Positions 7,506-8,040 of a stretch of DNA of 32,617 nt are shown piece after piece. Source of the stretch: Rikenellaceae bacterium (GTDB taxonomy: Bacteria; Bacteroidota; Bacteroidia; Bacteroidales; Rikenellaceae). Below the pieces are notes generated by a model. That model was not told the origin of the DNA and did no database searches. It saw nothing but the letters and a program-made list of their open reading frames with translations. The stretch is from contig JAIECQ010000123.1 of the NCBI GenBank assembly GCA_029068395.1, positions 1 to 32,617 on the forward strand, written 5' to 3'. Each line of letters starts with the position of its first letter. Position 1 is the first letter of the stretch. The translations under genes were made by a program, and so were the position numbers.

Positions 7506-7589
7506 CAGAAATTCTTACGCCACCCATAAAAAAATTACCTTATTTTCTTTTTTATTTCAAAAAATAGAGGTATTTTGTCTTTATATTAA

Positions 7590-7598
7590 TATCTTTGC
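7590..7598 (+). promoter_or_regulatory. promoter -7 element for the putative non-coding RNA
   Basis: TATCTTTGC matches the Bacteroidota TAnnTTTG -7 motif and precedes a non-coding structured region; the -33 element is not clearly placed. Confidence 0.55.
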
Positions 7599-7601
7599 AT
7601 T

Positions 7602-8040
7602 TGGCCGCTCTGCTGTCGTTGGTAGTGTCTTTTAGAGTAAAACCCTATCAGCGAGCACTATAGGGCGGCACAACTTATGGCTATTATAGATTATTGTATA
7701 GGGTTGTATAAATTTTACATCTGATTGATGTCTGGGGTGTCGCAACCATATCTCGGCGCCCTTTTAGAGGATGGCTCTTGTTCGGACTTGTCAAGAGCAT
7801 CCGATTAAACCATGAAAAGTCCGTGGATAGGTAAAAATTGCGTTTTCGTTTTTTGTCGCCACACGGCGGCACTTCGAGCCATTCAGCCATTGAGCAAAAG
7901 CAAGAACAAGGGTATCGGCGAAGATTTTAGTAAAGGATGATATGCAATTTTCACTTCCGATAGAGCATCTTTACCGGAAGATCGGGAACCGTAACGGCTC
8001 TTCGACAAAACAGGCGACTAAACATCGCCTGTTTTTGTTT
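7602..8040 (+). ncRNA. putative structured non-coding RNA, family not identified
   Basis: No convincing ORF; bounded by a TATCTTTGC element and an intrinsic terminator; strong hairpin 7769-7780/7792-7802 whose loop (CGGACTT 7783-7789) can pair with AAGTCCG 7817-7823 (pseudoknot). Confidence 0.6.
8007..8040 (+). terminator. intrinsic terminator
   Basis: AAAACAGGCGA-ctaaaca-TCGCCTGTTTTTGTTTT. Confidence 0.85.

Follow-up and report, generated by a model that had tools for sequence, protein, structure and literature searches.

The interval 7590–8040 of the window (the whole 32,617-nt stretch of Rikenellaceae DNA analysed here) holds a putative transcript of ~440 nts, RNA1, flanked by a sirtuin gene and radC, and the question it raises is what such an RNA does. 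The initial annotation saw there a structured non-coding RNA with a pseudoknot, an interpretation that is partly supported. The most informative feature of RNA1 is, rather than the pseudoknot, a segment which that annotation missed, 7684–7735. This exposed stretch mirrors a family of small RNAs whose genes have sigma-54-like promoters, and RNA1 therefore probably captures those sRNAs or is controlled by them.

The RNA1 locus and its relatives

A search of 268 genomes of the family gave a clear homologue of RNA1 in only one genome besides its own (G000). This is G002, of the same genus, in which a 72% identical sequence (CAMRVW010000026.1) is syntenic, again between sirtuin and radC. Beside radC in G003 there are two collinear remnants, TATAGAGTATTGTATAG and GACAAGTCCGTGGA, and both together were reached by 0/200 shuffles; a chain across the whole region is not significant (9/150 shuffles). 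No counterpart was seen in G001. The comparison set accordingly comprises the two clear copies of G000 and G002 and the divergent G003 candidate, from uncultured draft genomes. RNA1 appears to be a separate transcription unit with its own promoter and terminator, and has the following features:

7590–7598, plus strand: −7-type Bacteroidota promoter element TATCTTTGC, nearly identical in G002 across ~40 nt (7560–7601)
7602–8040, plus strand: RNA1, non-coding, its 5′ end inferred from the promoter and its 3′ end from the terminator
7604–7670, plus strand: 5′ hairpin domain, diverged in sequence, a hairpin formable in either species, two of its pairs changed on both sides
7684–7719, plus strand: docking box TATAGATTATTGTATAGG plus TTGTATAAATTTTA, conserved between the species and complementary to the sigma-54 sRNA family
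7720–7735, plus strand: second docking block TCTGATTGATGTCTG, co-varying with the partner sRNA between species
7734–7761, plus strand: hairpin GGGTGTCG/CGGCGCCC, which is GATTGCCT/GGGTAATC in G002, compensatory
7769–7802, plus strand: bulged 11-bp stem, arms GGATGGCTCTTG (7769–7780) and CAAGAGCATCC (7792–7802), loop CGGACTT (7783–7789)
7817–7823, plus strand: AAGTCCG, 3′ arm of a predicted H-type pseudoknot; GACAAGTCCGTGGA also in the G003 candidate ortholog
7833–7957, plus strand: 3′ structured domain, its closing arms AAAAATTGCG/TGCAATTTT invariant
8007–8037, plus strand: intrinsic terminator, stem 8007–8035, T-rich tail

Much of what had been read from the letters holds. The promoter-like element, the bulged stem and the terminator starting at 8007 are where they had been placed, and the promoter stretch and terminator are retained in the G002 ortholog. 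A TTTG lies 12 nt upstream of the −7-type element, nearer than is usual for a −33 element. Downstream of tRNA genes in a different Rikenellaceae genus (L038, L041) there is a nearly identical copy of the terminator, ACAGGCGACTAAA..TCGCCTGTTTTTGTTTT; as relatives of RNA1, L038–L043, from other genera, were rejected, being terminator-only or chance matches. The absence of a convincing ORF over ~400 nts is borne out by the G002 comparison, in which no ORF is conserved: the longest shared frame (from 7942) crosses the terminator and has 10 nonsynonymous against 2 synonymous codon differences. A mobile element or phage origin was also considered and set aside, as plasmids, phages and viral contigs gave no match.

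The case for a structured non-coding RNA of ~440 nt draws on synteny, the conserved promoter and terminator, and compensatory change. RNA1 folds better than its dinucleotide shuffles (z = −4.5, 0/100); for its G002 counterpart the margin is smaller (z = −1.5). The hairpin at 7734–7761 co-varies (GGGUGUCG/CGGCGCCC against GAUUGCCU/GGGUAAUC in G002), and the 5′ hairpin is maintained by its two double changes. The pseudoknot proposed between CGGACTT and AAGTCCG is correctly positioned and both of its arms are kept in G002, but because they are invariant they provide no covariation. Alternative ACCCTAT/ATAGGG pairings had been proposed as well. ACCCTAT is present at 7642–7648, but the G002 ortholog has GAACTTAA there, so that the alternatives gain no support and a switch built on them was dropped.

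As to identity, no Rfam family matches RNA1 at gathering score and up to E = 10 there are only chance-level matches, which leaves the suggested 6S-like or Bacteroidales-1 assignment unsupported. Hallmarks of RNase P RNA and tmRNA had not been seen earlier. The former is located elsewhere in the genome, and for the latter ARAGORN finds none in the window and there is no Rfam match.

The proposed docking segment and the putative sigma-54-type sRNAs

The segment 7684–7735 forms the linker between two hairpins of RNA1 and matches, in reverse complement, the 5′ half of the ~105-nt sRNAs of a family encoded on contigs C130 and C96 of G000 with orthologs in G002. Its first part, 7684–7719, is the best-conserved part of the RNA1 5′ half in comparison with G002: identity is 36/38 over 7682–7719 versus 42/89 columns in the 5′ region 7602–7681 (Fisher p about 9e-8). 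On C130 the copy of 7684–7719 is diverged and in opposite orientation.

The sRNA genes share a layout, namely a sigma-54-like promoter TTTGGCAC-N6-TGCA, ~25 nt, AAAGCATTTGTCCC or a variant of it, an AU-rich anti-box stretch and a GC-rich terminator. The promoter is of the GG-N10-GC kind (TGGCAC-N6-TGCA) and lies shortly upstream of the putative transcripts; across four genomes the exact pattern has 12 matches versus 1 for its reversed control. Four members align well, A and C in G000 and B and D in G002, each with a sigma-54-like promoter and a terminator. A and B adjoin the same genes in the two species, as do C and D. The family has no match in Rfam, and a covariance model of A–D found members, among the 268 genomes, only in G000 and G002, the two that have a clear RNA1. 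At two further loci, E (L122, G000:C152) and F (L033, G003:C119), an anti-box precedes another terminator and no sigma-54 promoter was recognised; the core of E has a U-U mismatch. These are possible further sRNAs of the family. The minus strand of the RNA1 locus itself was considered as the site of a fourth sRNA gene and rejected: it has no sigma-54 promoter, and G002 has no terminator on that strand.

Some neighbouring observations may be recorded. Next to the C130 copy is a tyrosine recombinase (63–1049 of L003/L119). In a relative with an 83% identical recombinase (L110), the upstream sequence reads, by eye, like a type I restriction specificity gene, which suggests that the C130 enzyme is of the shufflon type, switching HsdS. 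The C130 copy was considered as an attachment site for this recombinase and discarded, the box being absent from the flanks of relatives and the L110 context being shufflon-like. In G001, four sigma-54-like promoters precede short related lipoprotein-like genes (L146–L149).

Predicted pairing and its co-variation

Between the 5′ half of the sRNAs and RNA1, an interrupted pairing of ~50 nts is predicted in which ~45 bp are complementary. It comprises a core of up to 17/18, a second run of 14 (A and B) and a further block of 11–12 nt. Predicted binding in kcal/mol is −42.7 for G000 RNA1 with A, −30.5 for G002 with B, −18.5 for G000 with C and −16.3 for G002 with D; with the docking segment alone shuffled it is −8.3 (A), −8.5 (B), −11.8 (C) and −8.1 (D). 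The values for A, B and D fall outside the range of their shuffled controls, while the −18.5 for C is within its own (minimum −19.5). Against shuffled RNA1 the duplex was equalled in 0/200 cases for A, 0/200 for B, 1/200 for D and 69/200 for C. Over both strands of the window the docking segment is the best site for C (36 versus 29 for the next), as it is for A (38 versus 29). The G003 candidate paired with locus F gives −35.3 versus −22.3 ± 3.4 (0/500 shuffles), and 6 of 1000 shuffles match the pairing outside the core taken by itself.

The second docking block pairs best with the partner of its own species: G000 with A gives −15.6 and G002 with B −18.5, against −9.5 for the swap of G000 with B and −11.8 for G002 with A. 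The last block has changed on both RNAs, being CUGAU/AUCAG in G000 and GGGAU/AUCCC in G002. This docking co-variation amounts in essence to a single event, of a kind that gene conversion could also produce. Of the 25 non-Watson-Crick positions 14 are G-U, where simple divergence of copies would lead one to expect 1/6 to 1/4, an excess that is indicative only because the pairs are related. In sum of computation, the RNA1–sRNA pairing is a well-supported prediction, and the docking segment has one of the traits expected of a sponge such as QrrX, computed conservation and complementarity to trans-encoded sRNAs.

The same data bear on two readings in which no RNA pairing is at work. One operates on DNA: the box would be a dispersed repeat or protein-binding site, with direct repeats TATAGRTTATTG (~12-bp period) that happen to stand in opposite orientation in the two kinds of gene. 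The repeat-like core of the C130 and C96 copies fits this, as does a looser box search of the four genus genomes, which gave 21 matches, some lying in ORFs, where the reversed pattern gave 3. It is nonetheless improbable, since complementarity extends over ~50 nts including a non-repeated, co-varying block, differences tend to G-U rather than to mismatches, and all terminator-associated copies precede the terminator in a single orientation, the opposite sense being found in RNA1 only. The other makes RNA1 a stand-alone structured RNA (6S-like or protein-binding, for instance) whose complementarity is incidental, stemming from an old fragment of an sRNA gene in inverted orientation. The segment does resemble such a fragment, lacking promoter and terminator, and RF00013 gives no 6S match within the group. 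However, that model also misses a Bacteroides control genome, so its silence is uninformative; the supposed relic is the best-conserved part of the RNA1 5′ half; and the layout, of 440 nt and a 5′ hairpin standing apart, differs from that of 6S RNA. This reading seems very improbable.

Which RNA may control which

Sequence and computation establish the RNA1 gene, the sRNA genes, their conservation, their complementarity and its co-variation between species. On these we rate as rather likely a genus-restricted circuit. In it a large, constitutive, structured RNA would either control a sigma-54 sRNA family or be under its control, by way of a dedicated 50-nt docking linker and unusually long AU-rich duplexes that co-evolve in each species.

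That RNA1 is the controlling party, a chromosomal, constitutive-type sponge whose open segment 7684–7735 pairs in trans with the paralogous sigma-54-type sRNAs, has about an even chance of being right. RNA1 would be made from its housekeeping-type promoter and the sRNAs would appear when sigma-54 is active; both would be expressed and would meet. If pairing at 7684–7735 then blocks or destabilises the sRNAs, RNA1 would thereby act as a sponge and fix a threshold that the sigma-54 sRNA response must pass. The conserved 3′ domain and pseudoknot would stabilise RNA1 or bind a protein. For a simple sponge that domain is superfluous; its conservation counts against the sponge reading and speaks for a function of RNA1 beyond titration.

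The main rival turns the direction round, with RNA1 as effector and the sigma-54 sRNAs as antisense regulators that would inactivate, degrade or refold it via the 5′ linker. All the pairing evidence fits this equally, and the long conserved 3′ domain with its pseudoknot, and the existence of several sRNA genes versus one RNA1, are what it would lead one to expect. The 3′ domain, however, has no known function or partner, and the docking segment sits in an inter-hairpin linker away from it; we hold this direction to be possible but on balance unlikely.

Known systems

Qrr sRNAs are sigma-54 dependent. In Vibrio cholerae, QrrX base-pairs with and destabilises Qrr1–4 (PMC9732341). Sponge action by RNA1 would resemble this: in both cases several paralogous sRNAs face one separately transcribed RNA that is complementary to them over a conserved segment. 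The Vibrio system is Hfq-dependent (PMC9732341). RNA1 differs in its length of ~440 nt, its structured 3′ domain and its predicted AU-rich duplex of ~50 nt; no sequence relation between QrrX and RNA1 is expected.

Closer phylogenetically are FopS/GibS of Bacteroides thetaiotaomicron, which are multicopy paralogous sRNAs whose 5′ half is single-stranded and whose terminator forms a hairpin (PMC11697453), all features of the present Bacteroidales family. FopS genes have a canonical sigma-ABfr promoter and the FopS family is in Rfam, whereas sRNAs A–D have a sigma-54-like promoter and no Rfam match, and so are not placed in it; no dedicated antisense partner RNA for FopS is mentioned in the text consulted (PMC11697453). 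Bacteroidales-1 (RF01693), 6S (RF00013) and 6S-Flavo (RF01685) are likewise Bacteroidetes non-coding RNAs, and the Rfam scan of the window, which gives only a tRNA, contains none of them.

No Bacteroidota RNA sponge was found in the open literature searched. RNA1 and its sRNAs would link sigma-54 to RNA control in the group. Another clean target in the genome is rubrerythrin (a gene named by eye), with a sigma-54-like promoter ~45 nt before it on L138 (G000:C31, 1501–2139). No obvious homologue of Hfq or ProQ is present in Bacteroides (PMC7366714), and the RNA1/sRNA gene pairs offer a direct test of sRNA action without Hfq. It has been suggested that AT-rich, unstructured Bacteroides sRNAs may need longer seeds (PMC7366714); a dedicated RNA partner with a co-evolving, AU-rich duplex of ~50 nts would, if true, be a concrete case of this.
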